This document shows, piece after piece, positions 6,158-53,548 of a DNA stretch of 62,770 bases; position 1 is the first letter of the stretch, and each line of letters begins with the position of its first letter. Below the pieces are notes generated by a model, which saw nothing but the letters and a program-made list of their open reading frames with translations, was not told the origin of the DNA and did no database searches. The translations under genes were made by a program, and so were the position numbers. Source of the DNA: a virus; IMG/VR virus record IMGVR_UViG_3300033571_013433, positions 1-62,770 of that record. One strand, given 5' to 3'.

Positions 6158-6346
6158 ATGACCACCACGCCACCGCCCCCGTATCGCGGCAACAGCCAGG
6201 ATCCGCGTGATTGCCAGTACCGCTCAGCGCTCAGCGCCGTGTGGACCCTGCTCGACCGGCGGCGCACCCTTGGCGGCAGTTCCCATGAGATCGGGCGCCT
6301 GGAGGCCCTGAGCGCCGACCTGCTGGCTCTCGCGAGGGGGTTCTGA
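6158..6346 (+). CDS. Small hypothetical protein upstream of the clamp, 62 aa
   Basis: The frame begins MTTTPPPPYRGNSQDPRDCQ and ends in a helical segment, EIGRLEALSADLLALARGF. The stop overlaps the start of the clamp gene (TGATG), which is the main evidence that it is translated. No Shine-Dalgarno sequence is obvious. Function unknown. Confidence 0.55.
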   Translation: MTTTPPPPYRGNSQDPRDCQYRSALSAVWTLLDRRRTLGGSSHEIGRLEALSADLLALARGF

Positions 6347-7473
6347 TGCCTTTCGACGCAACCCTGCCCCAGGAGGCCCTGGAGAGCCTGCTGCGGGCCG
6401 CTGGACGGGCAGTGAGCAGCCGCCCCAACCTGCCGGTGCTGTCATCGGTGCTCCTGACCGCCCAGGAGGCCGCTCAGGGCCTCTCAGCCGTTGGGTATGA
6501 CCTGAGCATCGGCGTAAGGGCCTCCCAGCCCGCCGTGGTGGCCGCTGGCGGCTCCGTGGCCGTGCCCCACCGCCTGCTGGCCGCCCTGGTGGGCCGCCTG
6601 CCCGCTGGAGAGGCCGTGCGGCTGGTGGTGGACCCCGAGACCGACCAGCTCCGCGTGGAGGCCGGCGAGGGGCGGTATTCGGTGGCCCTGCGGGCTGACG
6701 CGGCGGATTTCCCGGCCCTGCCCGAGGTTGACGGCGCGTGCGGCGTGGTCTGGGGCCCCCTGAGGCGCGCCCTTGCCACGGTGGCCCACGCCGCCAGTCA
6801 GGCCGAAGCGAGGCCCGAGCTGTGCGGTGTGCGTTTCGTGCTGACCGGCGGCGATCTTCGGGTGGAGACCATCGACGGGGGCGGCCACCGGGCGGCGTTC
6901 TACTCGCTGCCGGGGATGGTGGCTGGTGTCGATGACGCTGAGTTCACCGTGCCCAGCGACGCGGTTCGCGAGCTGCTGCGGCTCGATCTCGGCGACGACG
7001 ACCTGCTGGGTATCGGTCAGGATCGGGGAGTTGCGATCTTCGACGCCGAAAGCGTCGTGTTGGTGTGCAACCTGCTGGACGGGACTTGGCCGCCTATGTA
7101 TGGCAAACTCCCGAAGAAGCACAAGGCGACCCTGATCGTGAATCGCACTGAGTTGCTGTCAGCCGTGGAGCGGGCGTCGGTGGTGGCAGACCTGGGCGAA
7201 TGCGTGGTTGCCCTTAAGCACTCGGACGGCGCGATTACCGTCTCGTCTGAGAACGAAATGGGGTCTGTCGCCGATCACGTCGCCATGGAAGATGGCTCGG
7301 CTGATGGAGAGGAAACCCTGCTATTCCGCTCCCGCCTGTTGATCGACGCACTCAAACACATTGAGGGCTCGCTGGTGACGATTAACTATGTGAAGCCCGA
7401 AATGGCTATCCTTGAGCCTCAAGGATCCTCGCTGCAGAGGTATCTGGTGATGGGGCTGGCACCGAAAGCATGA
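6346..7473 (+). CDS. dnaN: DNA polymerase III beta subunit (sliding clamp)
   Basis: A 375-residue protein with the length and three-fold layout of bacterial beta clamps. The N terminus is characteristic (LLRAAGRAVSSRPNLPVLSS, the family's strand-helix start), followed by GYDLSIGV; a middle domain (DFPALPEV) and a C-terminal domain with YVKPEMAILEP follow. As a head-to-tail dimer it would encircle DNA and tether a polymerase. No phage polymerase is visible in the window, so it presumably recruits the host Pol III alpha subunit. Start and stop overlap both neighbours, indicating a coupled operon. Confidence 0.9.
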   Translation: MPFDATLPQEALESLLRAAGRAVSSRPNLPVLSSVLLTAQEAAQGLSAVGYDLSIGVRASQPAVVAAGGSVAVPHRLLAALVGRLPAGEAVRLVVDPETDQLRVEAGEGRYSVALRADAADFPALPEVDGACGVVWGPLRRALATVAHAASQAEARPELCGVRFVLTGGDLRVETIDGGGHRAAFYSLPGMVAGVDDAEFTVPSDAVRELLRLDLGDDDLLGIGQDRGVAIFDAESVVLVCNLLDGTWPPMYGKLPKKHKATLIVNRTELLSAVERASVVADLGECVVALKHSDGAITVSSENEMGSVADHVAMEDGSADGEETLLFRSRLLIDALKHIEGSLVTINYVKPEMAILEPQGSSLQRYLVMGLAPKA

Positions 7474-28859: not shown

Positions 28860-29234
28860 ATGCCAGGCAGTGAGCCCACCCATTCGGACATTATGGCTCG
28901 CCTGGGCGAGCTTAAGGGGCAGGTTGAAACCCTGACCCTTCTAGTCTCCCAGAAGCGCGAGGATCTAAACACAGCTTTTACGCTCATCAGAAGTCTAGAG
29001 CAGAGCGTTCCCGATAAAACAAAGGTTGACGAAATAGAGAAGCGGATGCGTGTCATTGAGGGGCAGATCGCTAAGTGGGTCGGCATTTGCCTAGCCTGCA
29101 GCTTTCTGTTCCCGGTCACGCTCAAGCTGCTCACTTCGCCTCATTCTGCCCGCACCGCGACTAGCCTTTTCTCATGGATCACACCAACGGATTCGGCGGC
29201 ATCTACGTGGTCAACCCCGAAACCGGGGAGGTGA
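28860..29234 (+). CDS. Coiled-coil protein with one membrane segment, holin/XhlA-like
   Basis: A 124-residue protein. A heptad-rich region at residues ~10-70 (MARLGELKGQVETLTLLVSQ, VDEIEKRMRVIEGQIAKWV) precedes one hydrophobic helix (GICLACSFLFPVTLKLL), the layout of XhlA-type and some holin proteins. The last 40 residues overlap the next small gene and look random, so the functional protein may be shorter. A lysis role is inference. Confidence 0.6.
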   Translation: MPGSEPTHSDIMARLGELKGQVETLTLLVSQKREDLNTAFTLIRSLEQSVPDKTKVDEIEKRMRVIEGQIAKWVGICLACSFLFPVTLKLLTSPHSARTATSLFSWITPTDSAASTWSTPKPGR

Positions 29235-29344
29235 CTCGCTTGCCCTCTGACGCTCGCGCTCCCGAGCCCGAACCCAAGGCGACCGCCAAGCCCAAGCCCA
29301 AGCCCACCGCCACCGAGGCCCTGACCGATGCCCCTGAGAAGTAA
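29174..29344 (+). CDS. Small Lys/Pro-tailed protein, 56 aa
   Basis: MDHTNGFGGIYVVNPETGEV is followed by a KPKPKPT-type tail. It overlaps the previous gene by 61 bases and the tail tube start by 17. Base use fits this frame better than the overlapping one. Function unknown; the tail resembles that of the small protein at 21666. Confidence 0.55.
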   Translation: MDHTNGFGGIYVVNPETGEVTRLPSDARAPEPEPKATAKPKPKPTATEALTDAPEK

Positions 29345-30518
29345 GCAGCGCCTGGTCCTCGTCAAAACCGAGGCTTCCAGCTACGGCGTCAACTCGTCGC
29401 CCACCGGCAGCAATGCGCTGTTCATCAACGACGACCTGGAGCTGTCGCAGCCCGCAGGCGGTGGCACCACGCAACGGCGGATCATCCGCCCGTATCGCGG
29501 CGCCTACGAAACGCTGATCGTCAACAGCCAGGTTGGCATCACGTTCTCCGTTGAGCTTGCCGGGAGCGGCACTGCTGGCACAGCCCCCGCCTATGCCGAC
29601 CTGCTGCGCGCTTGCGGTTTGGCTCAAACCGTCACCGGCACCGCCCTGACCGGCACCGCAGCCGCAGGCGCGGCCGGCAGTATCACGCTGGCCGCTGGCA
29701 CTTCGGCCATCAACAACTTCTACGTTGGCCAGCTTATTTCCATCACGAGCGGCACCGGCGCTGGCGGCGCTGGCATCATCACCGCCTACAACGGCACCAC
29801 GAAAGTTGCAACTGTCGCCAAGACAACTACCACTTTCACCCCGGCCGCAAGCAGCCAATACAGCATTGGCGCCAATGTGTCGTTCAAGCCGATTTCCATT
29901 GTTGACGGCGTTGCTGACACGTCCTGCACCATTGTCTACAACGTAGACGGCGTGCAACACGTTCTGCTTGGCTGCCGTGGCACCGCTACAATCGGCATGA
30001 GCCTGGGCGAGATTCCGAGCATCAGCTATACGATGACCGGCATCTACACCACACCGACCGATACGGCGCAGTCCACCTACACGCTGGCCTACGCCAACCA
30101 GGCTGCGCCAGTTGTATTCAAGTCGGATGCCGTCAGCGGCTACAACTTCTTCGGTGTCACTACTTGCCTCCGAAGCATCCAGCTCGATATTGGCAACGAG
30201 GTGACTTACCGCGAGCTGATTGGCTGCGGCAAGCGTGTTGACATTGTTGACGGTCAGACTTCTGGCACGGTGATGATGGAAGCCACCACCATGGCGACCT
30301 GGAACCCGTTTGAGGCATCGCTGACTGATGGCTCGCCTGGCCTGCTGTCCGCTGTTCACGGACCCACCGCAGGCAACAGGGTCGGCCTCGTCGTTCCTCG
30401 TGTCGATCTCGGCCAACCTACCTACGCTCGGGATCAAGGCATCGAAATGATTAACGTTCCGATCACCGCACTTCCCAGCGTAGTTGGCAACGACGACTTC
30501 TACCTCGTCTATAGCTGA
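29328..30518 (+). CDS. Major tail tube protein with inserted beta domain
   Basis: A 396-residue protein expected to stack as hexamers into the tail tube. The flanking parts (RIIRPYRGAYETLIVNSQVG, FSVELAGSGTAGTAPAYADL, LRACG; and later LDIGNEVTYRELIG, GQTSGTVMMEAT) follow the tube-protein pattern of long-tailed phages. Residues ~105-185 (GSITLAAGTSAINNFYVGQL, GAGIITAYNGTTKVATV) are an inserted beta domain common in phage structural proteins and probably displayed outside. Confidence 0.8.
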   Translation: MPLRSKQRLVLVKTEASSYGVNSSPTGSNALFINDDLELSQPAGGGTTQRRIIRPYRGAYETLIVNSQVGITFSVELAGSGTAGTAPAYADLLRACGLAQTVTGTALTGTAAAGAAGSITLAAGTSAINNFYVGQLISITSGTGAGGAGIITAYNGTTKVATVAKTTTTFTPAASSQYSIGANVSFKPISIVDGVADTSCTIVYNVDGVQHVLLGCRGTATIGMSLGEIPSISYTMTGIYTTPTDTAQSTYTLAYANQAAPVVFKSDAVSGYNFFGVTTCLRSIQLDIGNEVTYRELIGCGKRVDIVDGQTSGTVMMEATTMATWNPFEASLTDGSPGLLSAVHGPTAGNRVGLVVPRVDLGQPTYARDQGIEMINVPITALPSVVGNDDFYLVYS

Positions 30519-47202: not shown

Positions 47203-47344
47203 GACAACGGCGCTGCATTTCGGCGATGCGGCCAGGAACGAGGTGCTCGCTTGAAACCGTGCTGGTGAACACGCCAACGGTGATGCGGATGCAGCCGTCA
47301 GGCAGGCGCGTGATTTGCGGCACAAGCATTGCGGCGCAGTGCAT
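47192..47344 (-). CDS. Small hypothetical protein, 50 aa
   Basis: Frame MHCAAMLVPQITRLPDGCIR followed by ITVGVFTSTVSSEHLV and a basic end. It begins just inside the divergent space with the recombinase gene. On the minus strand TATACT (47353-47358) lies upstream but without a matching -35. Modest support. Confidence 0.5.
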   Translation of the reverse strand: MHCAAMLVPQITRLPDGCIRITVGVFTSTVSSEHLVPGRIAEMQRRCHGS

Positions 47345-47410
47345 TCGATCAAGTATAGTCCGCTGTTACCCAACCCGAGGGCTTGTGCGACACGGCCTAT
47401 AGTCGCCCGA

Positions 47411-48694
47411 ATGGACGCACTAACCATTGGATACAGCCGTGTCAGCACCGCATCGGGCGAGCAGCTCAGCGCGTTACAGCGGCAGGTTTCGCGCCTAGAG
47501 GCCGCCGGCTGCGACCTGATTCTGCAGGACGTGGAATCCGGCCTCAACCAGCGCCGGCCCCAGTACCAGCAGCTTCGGCGCCTGGTAAAGGATGGGCGGG
47601 TGGCCCTGGTGCTCGTCACGGCGATCTCGCGCCTGGGCAGGAACGCGGCCGAGAGCGACGCATTCGTGGCCCTGTGCGACGAGCGGGGCGTGGCCTGCCG
47701 CTCCCTCTCCGAAGGCCAGCTCACCATGGCAACCCCCGAGGATCTGCTGCTGACGCGGCTCCGGGGCAGTCTCAGCCAGGGGGAGTCCATGCGCCTGAGT
47801 CAGCGCGTCAAGGCCGGGCTTGCGGAGGGGCGTCGGCATGGACGGCCCATGCGGAAACCGTGCTGGGGCTACCGACTGGCTGCTGATCGGTCGCGGATGG
47901 AGCCCGACCCCGAGCAGTGGCCGAGGGCGCAGGCGTTTCTGGAGAAGCTGCGAGGCAACAGCTGGCGGATGCTGCCGACCCTGCGCGAGAGTCCCGGCCT
48001 GTCGCCGTTCAAGTCATGCCGGGGCGTCCGGGCCTGGTTGCTGAATCCGACAATCCGTGGCGGGATTGGCTACGGGCAGCGGGCGAATCACGTGTTCGAT
48101 CAGATCACGTGGAGCCGGCACCCTGCGCTACTCAGTCACGCTGAGTTCACGGAAATGGAGCGCGTCATTGCGCACAACCGAAAGCTCTGGGGGCACAACT
48201 ACGGAACCATCCCCAGGATCCTGACCGGGTTGTGCGAGTGCGAGGAGTGCGGGTCGCGAATGTGCTACATCGCGGGCCGCACTCACCCTTCGCTCAAGTG
48301 TCGCGGCGAAGGGTGCAGTCAGCTCTACCGAAGCACGCGCGAAAGCGTGATCGTTTCTTATGTATGCGACCACTTGACCGTCGCCGCGGCTGAGCGATTA
48401 GCAGCGACGGTCAATCAGTCAGAGAGCGCGGAAGCGGCCGAGCTACGCCGACAGATCGTGCAGCTTGAGGCGATGGGTGACCCAGAACTGGCCGCCGCCA
48501 TCGCCGTCAAGCGGCAGCGGCTGGAGTCGGTACTAGCCGCGCCGATGGCCGATTCTGCGTTGATCGAGAAGCTGCGCGACCGCCGGTGGCTTGACCTGGC
48601 AACCGCCGATGAACTGCGCCTGATCCTGCAGCAGACCGTGGCAAGGGTTGTGATTGCCAAACAGGTGCCGGTGGCCATTCGTTTGCGGCTTTAG
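47411..48694 (+). CDS. Large serine recombinase (integrase-type)
   Basis: A 427-residue site-specific recombinase. The catalytic resolvase domain starts TIGYSRVST (nucleophile Ser about residue 12) and includes ISRLGRNAAESDAFV. Residues ~145-230 are the recombinase domain (RVKAGLAEGRRHGRPMRKP, WGYRL), followed by a zinc ribbon CECEECGSRMCYIAG and CRGEGC, and a helical C-terminal part. Enzymes of this build integrate temperate phages between attP and attB. The start at 47411 is the only good ATG; the frame is open 96 bases upstream. An attP site is expected nearby but cannot be read from one genome. Confidence 0.9.
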   Translation: MDALTIGYSRVSTASGEQLSALQRQVSRLEAAGCDLILQDVESGLNQRRPQYQQLRRLVKDGRVALVLVTAISRLGRNAAESDAFVALCDERGVACRSLSEGQLTMATPEDLLLTRLRGSLSQGESMRLSQRVKAGLAEGRRHGRPMRKPCWGYRLAADRSRMEPDPEQWPRAQAFLEKLRGNSWRMLPTLRESPGLSPFKSCRGVRAWLLNPTIRGGIGYGQRANHVFDQITWSRHPALLSHAEFTEMERVIAHNRKLWGHNYGTIPRILTGLCECEECGSRMCYIAGRTHPSLKCRGEGCSQLYRSTRESVIVSYVCDHLTVAAAERLAATVNQSESAEAAELRRQIVQLEAMGDPELAAAIAVKRQRLESVLAAPMADSALIEKLRDRRWLDLATADELRLILQQTVARVVIAKQVPVAIRLRL

Positions 48695-48743: not shown

Positions 48744-48862
48744 GCTTGCGAGGCCAGTTGAAGAACCCTTGCGAGGGGGATTGCTGCTACTTGGGGCACC
48801 ACGGCATTGCCTAGCGCCTTCAGGCGGTTGAGGCTCTGCGGTCTGTTGCCCAGTGATGCTTC
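48740..48862 (-). pseudogene. C-terminal remnant of a cytosine methyltransferase
   Basis: The frame reads ASLGNRPQSLNRLKALGNAV and VPQVAAIPLARV, i.e. motif X of a C5 methyltransferase without the rest of the enzyme. It parallels the end of the gene at 49179 (RLKALGNTIVPQCAAIPLAR), but at DNA level the two differ at many positions, so it is not a fresh copy. The HNH gene overlaps its upstream edge. Best read as the tail of a second methyltransferase displaced by the HNH gene. Confidence 0.7.
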
Positions 48863-49197
48863 AGGTGACATGAAGCGCATAAAGGCTGCATGTTCTCCAA
48901 GGCCATGTTCCATGGGTCGCCGTCTATGTGGTGAATGTGAATCTGGTGATTGGTGCCGCACTCGCCGCATGTCAAAGGCATCCCTGCATTGATGTAGCGG
49001 CGACGACTGGCTGACCTCGCTCCACTTTCTCCGGTGTGTTCTCCGGGCCGTTTACTTGTTGCGCATCCTTCGCGGCAGAAACGGCGGTTCAGGAAGCGCG
49101 TGAGATCCTCAAGCCTGCCTCCGTAGCGACGCCTCTCAAACGTTTGCCCGCAGAACTGGCAGACCCTCGGCCCCGCGTCTACTGCTCTTCTTCCCAT
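48820..49197 (-). CDS. HNH endonuclease between two methyltransferase tails
   Basis: A 125-residue nuclease. CQFCGQTF and later FCREGC form one Cys pair set, and LTCGECGTNHQIHIHHIDGD with NMQPLCASCHLKHH is the HNH core with its CxxC zinc frame. The ATG overlaps the last 19 bases of the intact methyltransferase. The end runs into the methyltransferase remnant in another frame. Such genes are mobile; the flanking methyltransferase ends mark the insertion. Confidence 0.85.
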   Translation of the reverse strand: MGRRAVDAGPRVCQFCGQTFERRRYGGRLEDLTRFLNRRFCREGCATSKRPGEHTGESGARSASRRRYINAGMPLTCGECGTNHQIHIHHIDGDPWNMALENMQPLCASCHLKHHWATDRRASTA

Positions 49198-50108
49198 AGC
49201 CGCTTAACCCTTGCAAGTGGAATAGCTGCACACTGAGGAACGATTGTGTTGCCTAATGCCTTAAGTCTGTCCACCCTATTGGATAACCTTGCATCTCCTC
49301 TACGAAGGACGGGTTCAGATAGGTAGCCTCGCCAGTCTGGGGAGAGACGGTGTGAATTTCGCGGCCAAGTAGGCCGTTGCTGGGGACGTTCGCACAGGCT
49401 TGCGCTGAACCGTCCTTCCAGTCTCTGGTGGTCGACGTGGGCAGCATCCGGCCAATGACCGTCTCCAGATTTGGGAAACGCTCCCCTTTGAGGTTGCCCC
49501 TGCTGTTCACTGGTGTTGCCATGGCCGAACATGCTCGTGGCGTAGGCAGCATCCAGTCTTCCGTGTTGCTCAGTCCACGCTGTTTGCTGTTTCTCCCTCT
49601 CCGCCTGGTGTCGTGCGTCGTTGGCGTAGGCAACGCACCACCAGCGATCACGCCGGTGGCAGGCGCCCACATCTGATGCGCGTATGCACGCCCACTCCGC
49701 GTCATACCCTGCCTCGGCCAGCTCTCCGAGAACGGTGTCCAGTCCGTTAGAAAGGATCGCTGATACGTTTTCCAAGACAACGAATCTTGGTCGTACCAAG
49801 CAAACGACTCGCATGAGTTCATAAAACAGCCCTGATCGTGTGCCTTGTTTGATTCCCGCGCCCTTGCCAGCCCTTGATATGTCCTGACAAGGGAATCCGC
49901 CGCAGATAACATCGGCTATGCCCTGAGCAGGATTGTAAGTGCAAATGTCATCGTGAATAGGGACAGTAGGCCAGTGCTTACAGAGAACTTTTTGGCAGAA
50001 GGGGTCGCGCTCTACAAATTGCACGGTCTGGAACCCGCCGACTAGGTGCTCGGCAGCGTAGGAGAAGCCGCCAATCCCAGAAAATGTATCGAGCAAGCGG
50101 AGCGTCAT
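49179..50108 (-). CDS. DNA (cytosine-5) methyltransferase, phage type
   Basis: A 309-residue C5 methyltransferase unrelated in detail to the one at 363. Motif I is LLDTFSGIGGFSYAAE, motif IV CGGFPCQDISRAG with the catalytic Cys, motif VI VLENVSAIL, motif VIII GACHRRDRWWCVAYA and motif X RLKALGNTIVPQ. The region between VIII and X, which would choose the target sequence, is short and low in recognisable structure. Its DNA also encodes a long frame in another phase (49253-49912). ATGA coupling with the dNMP kinase gene upstream. Confidence 0.92.
   Translation of the reverse strand: MTLRLLDTFSGIGGFSYAAEHLVGGFQTVQFVERDPFCQKVLCKHWPTVPIHDDICTYNPAQGIADVICGGFPCQDISRAGKGAGIKQGTRSGLFYELMRVVCLVRPRFVVLENVSAILSNGLDTVLGELAEAGYDAEWACIRASDVGACHRRDRWWCVAYANDARHQAEREKQQTAWTEQHGRLDAAYATSMFGHGNTSEQQGQPQRGAFPKSGDGHWPDAAHVDHQRLEGRFSASLCERPQQRPTWPRNSHRLSPDWRGYLSEPVLRRGDARLSNRVDRLKALGNTIVPQCAAIPLARVKRLWEEEQ
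49253..49912 (-). CDS. Overlapping alternative-frame protein inside the methyltransferase gene
   Basis: A 219-residue frame lying wholly inside the methyltransferase gene in another phase of the same strand. Unlike a random frame it holds motifs that I recognise from separately annotated phage proteins: LSWKTYQRSFLTDWTPFSES, WPRQGMTRSGRAYA, two LPTPTT/LPTPRA units, and the end LNPSFVEEMQGYPIGWTDL. It may be a true overprinted gene, or the known family may itself descend from reading methyltransferase DNA out of frame. No start signal stands out. Confidence 0.35.
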   Translation of the reverse strand: MLSAADSLVRTYQGLARARESNKAHDQGCFMNSCESFAWYDQDSLSWKTYQRSFLTDWTPFSESWPRQGMTRSGRAYAHQMWAPATGVIAGGALPTPTTHDTRRRGRNSKQRGLSNTEDWMLPTPRACSAMATPVNSRGNLKGERFPNLETVIGRMLPTSTTRDWKDGSAQACANVPSNGLLGREIHTVSPQTGEATYLNPSFVEEMQGYPIGWTDLRH

Positions 50109-50691: not shown

Positions 50692-51075
50692 TCAGGCGGC
50701 GGCGGCTTCGGTCTCGGTCTCGGGCTCCAGGGGGATCAGCTTGTAGCCGCCGTCCTCCAGTTCCTCAATCTCGAACTCGTCGCCAGGCACGAACTCCTGC
50801 TTGATGGTGTACGCCTTGCCGATGATGAGGTTGCCGCTGGCCTGAACGCGGGCCAAGAAGCTCAGCTCGCGGCCGGGGCGGTTGGATTGAGCGGGAGCCA
50901 GGGCCAGGCCCTTCGCCTCCAGCAGCGCCTCGTAGAAAGCGGAGTAGAGAACGCGCTCGGTGCCGTCTTTCTTGGTGCTGGTGTAGCCAGTCTCACGGGC
51001 GAGAACGTCCTTCGGGGTGTCCTCGGCGAACTCGCTGATCTTGCTGAGCAGATCCTTTCCGGTCAGTTGAGCCAT
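50692..51075 (-). CDS. Cyanobacterial-type AbrB transcription regulator
   Basis: A 127-residue protein. LTGKDLLSKISEFAEDTPKD, ARETGYTSTKKDGTERVL and FYEALLEAKGLAL match the N-terminal half of cyanobacterial cyAbrB proteins, and residues ~75-115 (LSFLARVQASGNLIIGKAYT, PGDEFEIEEL) are the swapped-hairpin AbrB DNA-binding domain, here at the C terminus as in the cyanobacterial family. In the host these proteins control carbon, nitrogen and other global genes. It has its own excellent promoter (51105-51133) and AGGA before the ATG, so it is expressed independently of the sigma genes upstream. Confidence 0.88.
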   Translation of the reverse strand: MAQLTGKDLLSKISEFAEDTPKDVLARETGYTSTKKDGTERVLYSAFYEALLEAKGLALAPAQSNRPGRELSFLARVQASGNLIIGKAYTIKQEFVPGDEFEIEELEDGGYKLIPLEPETETEAAAA

Positions 51076-51104
51076 GTCCTGTATTGAATGGGATGGACTG
51101 TCGA

Positions 51105-51133
51105 ATGATAGCCCTGTTTGCTCGCGAGTGCAA
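51105..51133 (-). promoter_or_regulatory. Promoter of the AbrB gene (TTGCAC-17-TATCAT)
   Basis: On the minus strand TTGCAC (51128-51133), 17 bases, TATCAT (51105-51110). The spacer carries ACTCGCGAGC overlapping the -35, which is identical to ten bases of the 20-bp element copy at 8742-8761 and is a likely binding site. Confidence 0.7.
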
Positions 51134-51135
51134 GC

Positions 51136-52101
51136 CTACAGATCGAAAAGGCTGGTCTGCGATGCGCCAGCTGGCGTAGCCACGGGTGCGGGGGCCGGCT
51201 GTGGCGTCCCCCGAGTGAGCAGGGTGCGGCAGCGACGCAGCGAGCGCGCTTCGATCTCCTGCAGGACAACCCGGCTTTTGCCCAGGCGCTCTTGCAGGTC
51301 AGACCAACGCTCAGGGTGCGGGCCATGCCGCGCCAGCAGAACCTCACGCGCCAGGGGTGACAGCGCCTCGGCAACGATGGCCTCCAGTCGCTCGGCCTGA
51401 TGGCTGGCGTCCAGTTCCTCAAGGCGCTCGTCAAGGGTCAGCGCGGCAGGGTCGGCGATGAACTCGCCCCTGGTGGCCTCGCCGTCACCGGCCTGGCCCA
51501 CGGGCTCGTCAAGGCTGCCGACGAACTGTGTTCGGCGGATGGCCTCTAGCAGCACGTCAAGAGGCACGTCGAGTCTCACCGCGATCTCGTCAGGCGACGG
51601 GTTGCGCCCCAGCTCGCGAGTGAGTTCTTCCCGTGCGCGGCTGATTTTGATGAGCTGGTTGTGAATTGGCAATGGCAACCGGATCAGGAAGTCATCCCAC
51701 TGGATTGCGTGCTGAATCGCCTGGCGGATCCACCAGTAGGCATAGGTCGAGAACTTGTAGCCCTTGCTCGGGTCGAACTTCTCCACGGCGCGGGCCAGGC
51801 CCACGTTGCCCTCCTGGATCAAGTCGGCTAGGTCGAGACTGCGACGATGCTGGCGGTAGCGTTTGGCCACGTCCACCACCAGGCGCAGGTTCGCCTCAAT
51901 GAATCTCTCCCTGGCGCGCAAGCCGCGTTTGATTTCGCGCTGCTCGTCAGGGGTGGGCGTGTAACCTGACGCATCCCGCGCCTTGAGTTCCTGCAGGCGC
52001 GCAATCAGCCGGCCCAGCTTGATTTCATCCTCGGCAGTCAGCAGGGGATACCGACTGAGCCGATCCAAGTAGGCGCGAAGGGCGGGATCCTGGCTGCTCA
52101 T
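51136..52101 (-). CDS. Sigma-70 family RNA polymerase sigma factor (first of two)
   Basis: A 321-residue SigA-like factor. Region 1.2 is DPALRAYLDRLSRYPLLTAE; region 2 is nearly canonical (EANLRLVVDVAKRY, DLADLIQEGNVGLARAVEKF, YKFSTYAYWWIRQAIQHAI), with RLPLPIHNQLIKISRA and ELGRNPSPDEIAVRL for region 3. Region 4 is present but diverged (SDLQERLGKSRVVLQEIEAR). Region 2.4 suggests a -10 like the host's; the altered region 4 suggests a different -35. A Pro/Ala tail ends it. It overlaps the second sigma gene by four bases. Confidence 0.93.
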   Translation of the reverse strand: MSSQDPALRAYLDRLSRYPLLTAEDEIKLGRLIARLQELKARDASGYTPTPDEQREIKRGLRARERFIEANLRLVVDVAKRYRQHRRSLDLADLIQEGNVGLARAVEKFDPSKGYKFSTYAYWWIRQAIQHAIQWDDFLIRLPLPIHNQLIKISRAREELTRELGRNPSPDEIAVRLDVPLDVLLEAIRRTQFVGSLDEPVGQAGDGEATRGEFIADPAALTLDERLEELDASHQAERLEAIVAEALSPLAREVLLARHGPHPERWSDLQERLGKSRVVLQEIEARSLRRCRTLLTRGTPQPAPAPVATPAGASQTSLFDL

Positions 52102-52961
52102 GCTGCCCCCTTCATCGTCAGTATCCGCCGCAGCTTGCGCTCGGCAGTGGCGATGCGCGAGGAAACGGCCTGATGACTGATGCCATGGGTGCGAGCCAGC
52201 GCCCGAATAGTGGGCTGCTCTGAGCCGTCAAGGCCATAGCGGGCCTCAATCAGGGTGCGTTCTTCGTCGCTGAGCGAGTTGATGGCACTGCGAAGAAAGT
52301 CGTAGTCGCTGACGGATGGCTGGCTGTTTTCGTCAGGGATATTGCTGATCCAGCTGTTATCGTTTTCAATGTGAGAGGCGTCAAGTGACGAGACCTTGCG
52401 GCACGCTAGGGCAAGCACCTGATAGTCCTCTAGCTTGACTTCGGCCCTCTCGGCGACCTCGGCTGCCCTGACGACCCTTCCCTCATGCGAGATCGCTTCT
52501 GCGGCGCGCTTGATCTTGCGCCACCGCTCCACCTGATGCTGTGGCGTGCGAATGAGCCTGTCGGCTTGATCCAATTCGCGAACCATGGCCTGACGGATCC
52601 ACCATGAGGCATAGGTCGAGAACTTGTAGCCGCGCTCAGGGTCGAACAGTTCAACGGCGCGGCGCAGGCCGATGATTCCAACCTGAACGAAATCGTCAAT
52701 CTCAAGAAACTCGGCGCGGTTTGCATACGGCTTGGCAAGGCTGACAACCAGGCGAAGATTGCAGTTCACCATGCGATCTGCGGCGGATCTCGACTTGCGC
52801 AAGATCGCACGCTCGCGAGGGGTGGGCTTGCGGTCGCCCAGTTGCTCGGTCAGCTCTGCGCCCGCCTTGTAGAGCCTGCTTAGCTCAATTTCTTCTACAG
52901 CGGTCAGCAGGGGCCATCGCCCGAGCTGATTCATAAACCAGTCAAAGCCGTTGCTGCGCAT
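52098..52961 (-). CDS. Sigma-70 family RNA polymerase sigma factor (second of two)
   Basis: A 287-residue factor. FMNQLGRWPLLTAVEEIEL is region 1.2; NCNLRLVVSLAKPYANR, FVQVGIIGLRRAVELFDPER and YKFSTYASWWIRQAMVREL form region 2; region 4 is well kept (TIRALARTHGISHQAVSSRI). It differs from its neighbour throughout, so the two are not a recent duplication and probably read different promoters. An acidic linker (ENDNSWISNIPDENSQPSVS) separates 3 and 4. The start overlaps the NblA-like gene by 20 bases. Confidence 0.93.
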   Translation of the reverse strand: MRSNGFDWFMNQLGRWPLLTAVEEIELSRLYKAGAELTEQLGDRKPTPRERAILRKSRSAADRMVNCNLRLVVSLAKPYANRAEFLEIDDFVQVGIIGLRRAVELFDPERGYKFSTYASWWIRQAMVRELDQADRLIRTPQHQVERWRKIKRAAEAISHEGRVVRAAEVAERAEVKLEDYQVLALACRKVSSLDASHIENDNSWISNIPDENSQPSVSDYDFLRSAINSLSDEERTLIEARYGLDGSEQPTIRALARTHGISHQAVSSRIATAERKLRRILTMKGAA

Positions 52962-53112
52962 TAGAAAGCATCATTGCGAGGATGAGGCCGCGATGGGCTT
53001 GGGCGTAGTCGATAATCATTGGGGCTATCTGCTGCGCTTGTTCGTGGTTGGCATCGCGCACCATGCGGCGCCACTGGTCAAAGCGGAGTTGCTCGTGAAG
53101 TGGAAGATCCAT
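52942..53112 (-). CDS. NblA-like small protein (candidate), 56 aa
   Basis: The frame is MDLPLHEQLRFDQWRRMVRD, then ANHEQAQQIAPMIIDYAQAH and a short tail. Length, two-helix character and the spacing of L-x-L-x2-Q, VRD and EQ agree with NblA, the cyanobacterial adaptor that triggers phycobilisome breakdown and that some freshwater cyanophages carry. This rests on remembered sequences, not a search; similar short helical phage proteins of other function exist. It lies directly upstream of the two sigma factors and overlaps one. Confidence 0.45.
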   Translation of the reverse strand: MDLPLHEQLRFDQWRRMVRDANHEQAQQIAPMIIDYAQAHRGLILAMMLSNAQQRL

Positions 53113-53143: not shown

Positions 53144-53548
53144 CTAAAAAGGAACTTCTTCGTCGCTAGGCTCGCCGCCGCCCCACTGATTCTGGGGCTG
53201 TGGGCGCGACTGGGATCCGCCTTGCTGGCCCTGATTGTCAGATTTGCTGCCTAGGAGGCGCAGATCATTGGCAACCAACTTGAGCTGCTTGCGCTCCTCG
53301 CCAGTGGTGCGGTCGGTCCACACGTCAAGGTCAATTTCGCCGCTGACGCCAATGAGGCCGCCCTTCTTCACGTAGTCGGCGGCAACCTGGGCCGGCTTGC
53401 CCCATATCTCAACCTTCACCCAAAGCGGTTCGGCATCGCGCTTGCGGCGATTAACGGCAATGGTGAAGTTTGTGACTATCTTGCCGTTTTCGAGATAACG
53501 GGCTTCGGCGTCACGGCCAGCGCGGCCGACAAGGCTTGCGTTGTTCAT
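53144..53548 (-). CDS. ssb: Single-stranded DNA-binding protein
   Basis: A 134-residue bacterial-type SSB. The OB fold is clear (NNASLVGRAGRDAEARYLEN, VTNFTIAVNRR, LWVKVEIWGKPAQVAADYVK, LIGVSGEIDLDVW) and a Gln/Gly-rich linker leads to the acidic tip DEEVPF that recruits partner proteins. It would coat phage single strands in replication and in exonuclease-driven recombination. Its start overlaps the small RHH gene by four bases. Confidence 0.95.
   Translation of the reverse strand: MNNASLVGRAGRDAEARYLENGKIVTNFTIAVNRRKRDAEPLWVKVEIWGKPAQVAADYVKKGGLIGVSGEIDLDVWTDRTTGEERKQLKLVANDLRLLGSKSDNQGQQGGSQSRPQPQNQWGGGEPSDEEVPF

Follow-up and report, generated by a model that had tools for sequence, protein, structure and literature searches.

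Two overlapping sigma-70 genes in a probable cyanobacterial siphovirus, and a clamp-like tail on the second

Sigma factors direct RNA polymerase to its start sites, and how late genes are controlled in the siphoviruses of cyanobacteria is little understood. Among 4,350 phage genomes surveyed, one sigma was found in 11.7%, two in 1.1% and three in 0.7%, and SPO1 and SP10 are known to use two or three (PMC9429907). The SPO1 sigmas gp28 (middle) and gp34 (late) follow each other in succession, as the pair proposed here would, in a different host (PMC9429907). A second precedent is the Prochlorococcus siphovirus P-SS2, which likewise has two sigmas, one of them a group 2 factor encoded beside ssb (PMC2784084). 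An earlier note on the DNA studied here, according to which phages usually carry one divergent sigma at most, is right as to frequency, but one at most is no rule.

The cyanosiphoviruses S-CBS1, S-CBS3, S-LBS1 and KBS-S-2A, in each of which we found one sigma, carry the rpsD4 type: group-2-like, without region 1.1 and encoded in the replication cluster. More generally, ssb stood near the sigma gene in most of the viral loci that we retrieved. At a greater distance stands the late sigma of T4, gp55, made up of a sigma-2-type core and a tail only. Its linker, some 17 residues long, has diverged, while the hydrophobic-acidic motif at its C-terminus, which binds the sliding clamp, is conserved (PMC2988020). 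The T4 late system further comprises a trimeric clamp, the coactivator gp33 and the promoter TATAAATA. The literature found on cyanophage sigma factors, sliding clamps and late genes concerned T4-type phages, other myoviruses or jumbo phages.

In this study, we analyse the whole of IMG/VR record IMGVR_UViG_3300033571_013433 (62,770 bases; hereafter the window), in which two sigma genes, here called sigUp and sigDn, lie in tandem. Two or three sigmas in one phage have been described before; what is new is a clamp-like tail on a sigma of full length.

The sigma-sigma-AbrB cassette and its setting

Besides the genes listed in Table 1, the window encodes a lambda-type terminase and portal, a capsid protein, a helicase and a primase. 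The host is probably a cyanobacterium (a small photosynthetic bacterium). The terminase is 35.6% identical to that of the freshwater Synechococcus siphovirus S-LBS1, one of the closest isolates, and no prophage terminase was found in the 17 cyanobacterial genomes searched. The window also carries a DNA C5-cytosine methyltransferase recognised by Pfam (363-1466) and an ORF that, judged from its sequence, resembles a second one (49179-50108) and is overlapped by an HNH-like ORF (48820-49197).

Table 1. Features of the window discussed in the text
Feature	Position in window	Strand	Remarks
DNA polymerase III beta (sliding clamp), phage-encoded, three-domain	6346..7473	+	possible partner of the sigDn tail
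Serine integrase	47315-48694		
AbrB-like regulator (PF14250, cyAbrB)	50692..51075	-	third gene of the conserved cassette
60-bp gap before abrB	51076..51135	-	promoter-like TTGCAC-17-TATCAT and short inverted repeat, by sequence inspection
sigDn, 321 aa, viral group-2-like sigma-70	51136..52101	-	remodelled region 4 and C-terminal tail
QTSLFDL, putative beta-clamp-binding motif	51139..51159	-	residues 315-321, extreme C-terminus of sigDn
Pro/Ala-rich linker and C-terminal end of sigDn, predicted disordered	51139..51201	-	residues 301-321; pLDDT about 40
sigDn region 4	51211..51357	-	residues 249-297; complete predicted helix-turn-helix
sigUp, 287 aa, viral group-2-like sigma-70	52098..52961	-	regions 1.2, 2, 3, 4; first of the pair
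sigUp region 4 (Pfam r4)	52128..52286	-	-35 contacts changed
56-aa ORF, earlier called NblA-like	52942..53112	-	no family match
ssb (SSB)	53144..53548	-	usual upstream neighbour of the sigma gene in cyanosiphoviruses

The sigma pair follows ssb and closes the replication operon of the minus strand. Both ORFs are intact, their overlap of 4 bp reads ATGA, and the two proteins share 34% overall identity, so that the two distinct sigmas overlapping by four bases described in the earlier note are real. The ATGA junction couples the translation of sigUp and sigDn, and both should consequently be made together. At the level of the Pfam gathering thresholds, sigUp matches r1.2, r2, r3 and r4 and sigDn the first three of these, its region 4 being recognised through alignment and an AlphaFold2 model; in Foldseek the whole sigDn model aligns to sigma-A chains in initiation complexes. 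Both proteins lack region 1.1, their N-termini starting at region 1.2, and both fall outside the host sigmas sampled below. The description of the pair as SigA-like is hence acceptable only in a loose sense.

Comparison with the described systems places sigUp among the rpsD4-type sigmas, as it belongs to a viral lineage and adjoins ssb in the replication cluster, in the same place that the sigma takes in the order ssb, small ORF, sigma of S-CBS3. The rpsD4 cyanosiphoviruses have a single sigma, whereas the window has a tandem in which both -35 helices are altered and after which abrB comes. In P-SS2 a long distance separates the two genes, and the second encodes a group 3 sigma, while those of the window are both group-2-like and overlap by 4 bp.

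The arrangement recurs in a second viral record, IMGVR_UViG_3300032287_002590 (L139), as sigma-sigma with the identical 4-bp overlap and then AbrB. Between the two viruses sigUp is 37%, sigDn 58% and AbrB 60% identical, and the same order and overlap in so diverged a relative show that the arrangement in the window is no accident of assembly. The tandem is genuine, conserved and built from parts of known kinds. It is also rare: L139 was the one locus with two sigmas among the 104 viral sigma loci first checked, and a second sigma match was present in 3 of 50 sigma-bearing virus records, namely that of L139, G288 and, weakly, G253. Relatives were recovered by an alignment-based search of the viral sequences that a search with the single protein sigUp, which gave no match in the viral records, had missed.

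Other viruses with two sigmas are arranged differently. In G288 (the contig of locus L217) the sigma genes lie about 13 kb apart (C1:15291-15713 and 28931-29494). A later scan added a further two-sigma locus, L360:5932-8205 (IMGVR_UViG_3300044508_000032), with a sigma of canonical region 4, two small ORFs and a shortened sigma ending PPAPPPPRPAHLVAAEQLQLALTV, in this order.

The third gene of the cassette encodes a genuine cyAbrB, matching PF14250 with 66 bits against a Pfam gathering cut-off of 25, and the AbrB that the earlier note had reported beside the pair is thereby borne out; it is kept with the sigmas in L139. No AbrB-like match was found in 50,697 phage records; the nearest copies found are AbrB paralogues of small-genome cyanobacteria, at 50-54% identity. 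The gap in front of the gene holds the inverted repeat GCTTGC-4-GCRAGC and is partly conserved at L139:6815-6874, and from this sequence abrB may have a regulated promoter of its own. We find no support for the proposed NblA identity of the 56-aa ORF upstream, which gave no match to Pfam even at E = 10 and has no counterpart in the L139 cassette. With this member unsupported, the "takeover island" that the earlier note had drawn shrinks to sigma-sigma-AbrB.

Region 4 and the lineages of the two sigmas

The promoter-reading residues were mapped via a host SigA and are given in E. coli numbering (positions 425-440 and 584-589). The residues for binding core RNA polymerase are kept in both sigmas. 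All of Y425, T429, Y430, W433, W434 and Q437, which serve recognition and melting of the -10 element, are kept in both sigmas, and T440 is replaced by V in sigUp and by Q in sigDn. The canonical -35 contacts R584, E585, R588 and Q589 have become H, Q, S and S in sigUp and R, V, Q and E in sigDn; the host rows keep them in 20, 21, 23 and 20 of 24 cases respectively. These contacts mark canonical promoter reading and not membership of the sigma-70 family, and their loss limits any claim as to which promoters are read.

The earlier contrast of a degraded region 4 in one sigma with an intact one in the other does not survive this comparison. AlphaFold2 predicts region 4 of sigDn confidently and completely, with helices at 249-259, 266-273 and 277-297, and this helix-turn-helix, together with conservation across the clade, rules out degradation; it is sigUp that has lost as many of the usual -35 contacts as sigDn, or more. 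Region 4 of sigDn falls below the Pfam threshold because of a three-residue deletion and a different recognition helix that run through the whole of the virus-only clade to which it belongs (clade vB, below). Nor can an order of use be deduced from region 4, since both copies are altered and translation of the one gene is coupled to that of the other.

Probably the two sigmas read different promoters. The T4-type late octamer occurs 0 times in the window, and scans for consensus promoters and terminators gave results near chance and identified no promoter class.

For 85 sigmas, viral and from cyanobacterial hosts, a careful maximum-likelihood tree was computed; the host sigmas were drawn from 244 genomes belonging to the same phylum as one cyanobacterial match, because a scan of genome contigs had given mainly distant bacteria. 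In this tree sigUp groups with its L139 counterpart (100/97) and sigDn with its own (100/100). The sigDn pair is nested in clade vB (100/99), with sigUp outside. Both window sigmas lie outside the sampled host sigmas and are held in strong virus-only sub-clades; the overall split between virus and host is weaker (78/84), and the grouping of sigUp with S-CBS3 is weak (92/83). Forcing the four paired sigmas of the window and L139 into one clade cost 41 log units, with a moderate p-AU of 0.026.

On the strength of these alignments and the tree, sigUp and sigDn are old, separate viral lineages, which most simply were joined before the window virus and L139 split. We reject a recent tandem duplication on the 34% identity, the separate and strongly supported clades and the p-AU value, and a recent capture of a host SigA or group 2 gene on the viral nature of the closest relatives, among which both rows fall. 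The members of clade vB (loci L220-L298) share the three-residue deletion, W266 and a non-canonical -35 helix, and those other than the pair have a single sigma in the records examined.

The C-terminal tail of sigDn

Beyond region 4, sigDn runs on for about 20 residues predicted to be disordered, a linker that ends in QTSLFDL. The bacterial clamp-binding consensus is QL[S/D]LF (PMC3716654), and a clamp motif, QLxLF, is usually C-terminal and set in unstructured sequence (PMC4549789). The sigDn motif fits except at position 2, which is T or V and not L, and to judge from this short match the peptide resembles a hook for the clamp of DNA replication. In L139 the tail ends QVSLFDL: the linker has diverged from that of the window, and QxSLFDL is kept. 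All five codons of SLFDL differ between window and L139 (AGC/TCG, CTT/CTG, TTC/TTT, GAT/GAC, CTG/CTT) and are synonymous, an indication that the peptide is under selection.

Motifs of this kind are concentrated in sigmas. The final 12 residues contain Qx[SD]L[FL] in 5 of 3,337 distinct viral ORFs of at least 120 aa, three of the five being sigmas of the sigDn clade. With QLxL added, clamp-like C-termini are found in 7/81 sigma clusters and 6/897 other ORFs (Fisher p = 2.4e-5, an optimistic value because the patterns were chosen after the first cases had been seen), and 0 of 2000 tail shuffles reached seven such sigma clusters. Of these seven, L154 (QLKL) probably matches by chance. Among individual sigmas, KBS-S-2A ends QLPLIP, S-LBS1 ends QLVLVEAP, and the second sigma of L360 has a Pro-rich linker followed by QLQLALTV. 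The exact form QxSLFDL is confined to the two related sigmas of the window and L139. Within clade vB, L260 has QSSLL; most members, although they share the region-4 deletion and W266 with sigDn, end ...TPLG without a clamp motif, the QxSLF tail being absent from nearly all of them.

Two other conserved tails were seen. In vB (L220-L298, L379-L445) a conserved ...NPLxxTPLG directly follows region 4, and a sub-group of sigmas (L196, L197, L205 and L216) shares the ending ...SSSLIWGWG, which may be a short linear motif as well.

The records of L139 and L360 yielded no clamp gene, so that the tailed sigmas there would need the clamp of the host. Only the window record has both a tail and a phage clamp, and we discarded a general correlation between the two.

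The layout of linker and terminal motif fits that of T4 gp55, and if our reading of sigDn is correct, the two would also have in common that they serve as late sigmas, bind a clamp and make no use of a standard -35 (PMC2988020, PMC7892883). Unlike gp55, sigDn has regions 3 and 4 and for this reason stands outside the gp55 family, and its partner would be a clamp of the bacterial type.

A two-step module and its alternatives

We propose, with a probability of roughly 0.4, that sigUp and sigDn form a transcription module working in two steps in a temperate cyanosiphovirus, with sigDn as a clamp-tethered late factor. The two sigmas would be translated together from the end of the replication operon. 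sigUp would do the usual job of the single cyanosiphovirus sigma: it would take hold of the host RNA polymerase and redirect it to phage promoters in which the -35 is non-standard or missing. sigDn, whose remodelled region 4 would no longer read the standard -35, would bind the sliding clamp, either the phage's own beta clamp or that of the host, through its QTSLFDL tail. The clamp would stabilise promoter complexes of sigDn in place of the lost -35 contact, and efficient firing of late promoters would then be limited to DNA under replication, following the logic of gp55 with a full-length sigma. The sequences and models show the genes, their conservation, the lineages, the predicted folds and the conserved peptide, whereas clamp binding, late timing and distinct promoters are inferred. 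Against the proposal speak the lack of a T4-type octamer in the window, the other tailed sigmas in records that yielded no phage clamp, and the many vB sigmas without the tail. Should the sigmas be used one after the other, the switch that we propose is the clamp-like C-terminus of sigDn, which the earlier note had not seen.

A wider suggestion, which we hold tentatively, is that cyanosiphoviruses, outside the T4 family, came to couple late transcription to replication by means of a full-length sigma with a tail that binds the beta clamp, and that some of them run a coupled two-sigma relay ordered by clamp loading and not by separate synthesis. If true, sigDn would to our knowledge be the first promoter-recognition protein outside the T4 family found to be tethered to the replication machine, and the coupled pair would offer a natural system in which sigmas made together are told apart by something besides the timing of their synthesis.

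A possible, if rather doubtful, alternative is that two sigmas serve two promoter classes with no part for the clamp, each region 4 reading a new -35 or touching a phage activator, and the sigDn tail binding an anti-sigma factor, AbrB or a protease adaptor, or being a stability tag. This agrees with the -35 recognition helices, which differ from those of the host and from each other, and with the coherent region 4, W266 and own recognition helix that the sigDn clade keeps; the different tails of other viral sigmas (...SSSLIWGWG, ...NTPLG) also suggest that tails may serve several partners. What it leaves unexplained is the convergence of independent sigma tails on Q-x-[S/D]-L-[F/L] or QLxL.

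It is unlikely that the second sigma is a redundant gain by recombination between related phages, with much the same promoters and one copy dispensable. Phage mosaicism is common, second sigmas are as scarce as the 3 of 50 records indicate, and sigUp evolves faster than sigDn; yet throughout the divergence of sigUp to 37% identity the coupled pair and AbrB stayed together in two viruses, and the two sigmas differ in the residues that read DNA.

About equally unlikely, finally, is that the pair mainly diverts RNA polymerase to selected host promoters, with AbrB tuning host or lysogeny genes and late genes controlled otherwise: S-CBS3 RpsD4 expressed in Synechococcus elongatus is reported to have altered growth and metabolism (PMC10452541), and the AbrB resembles cyanobacterial copies, but the viral lineages of the sigmas and their location near ssb in the replication cluster suggest phage promoters as the targets.
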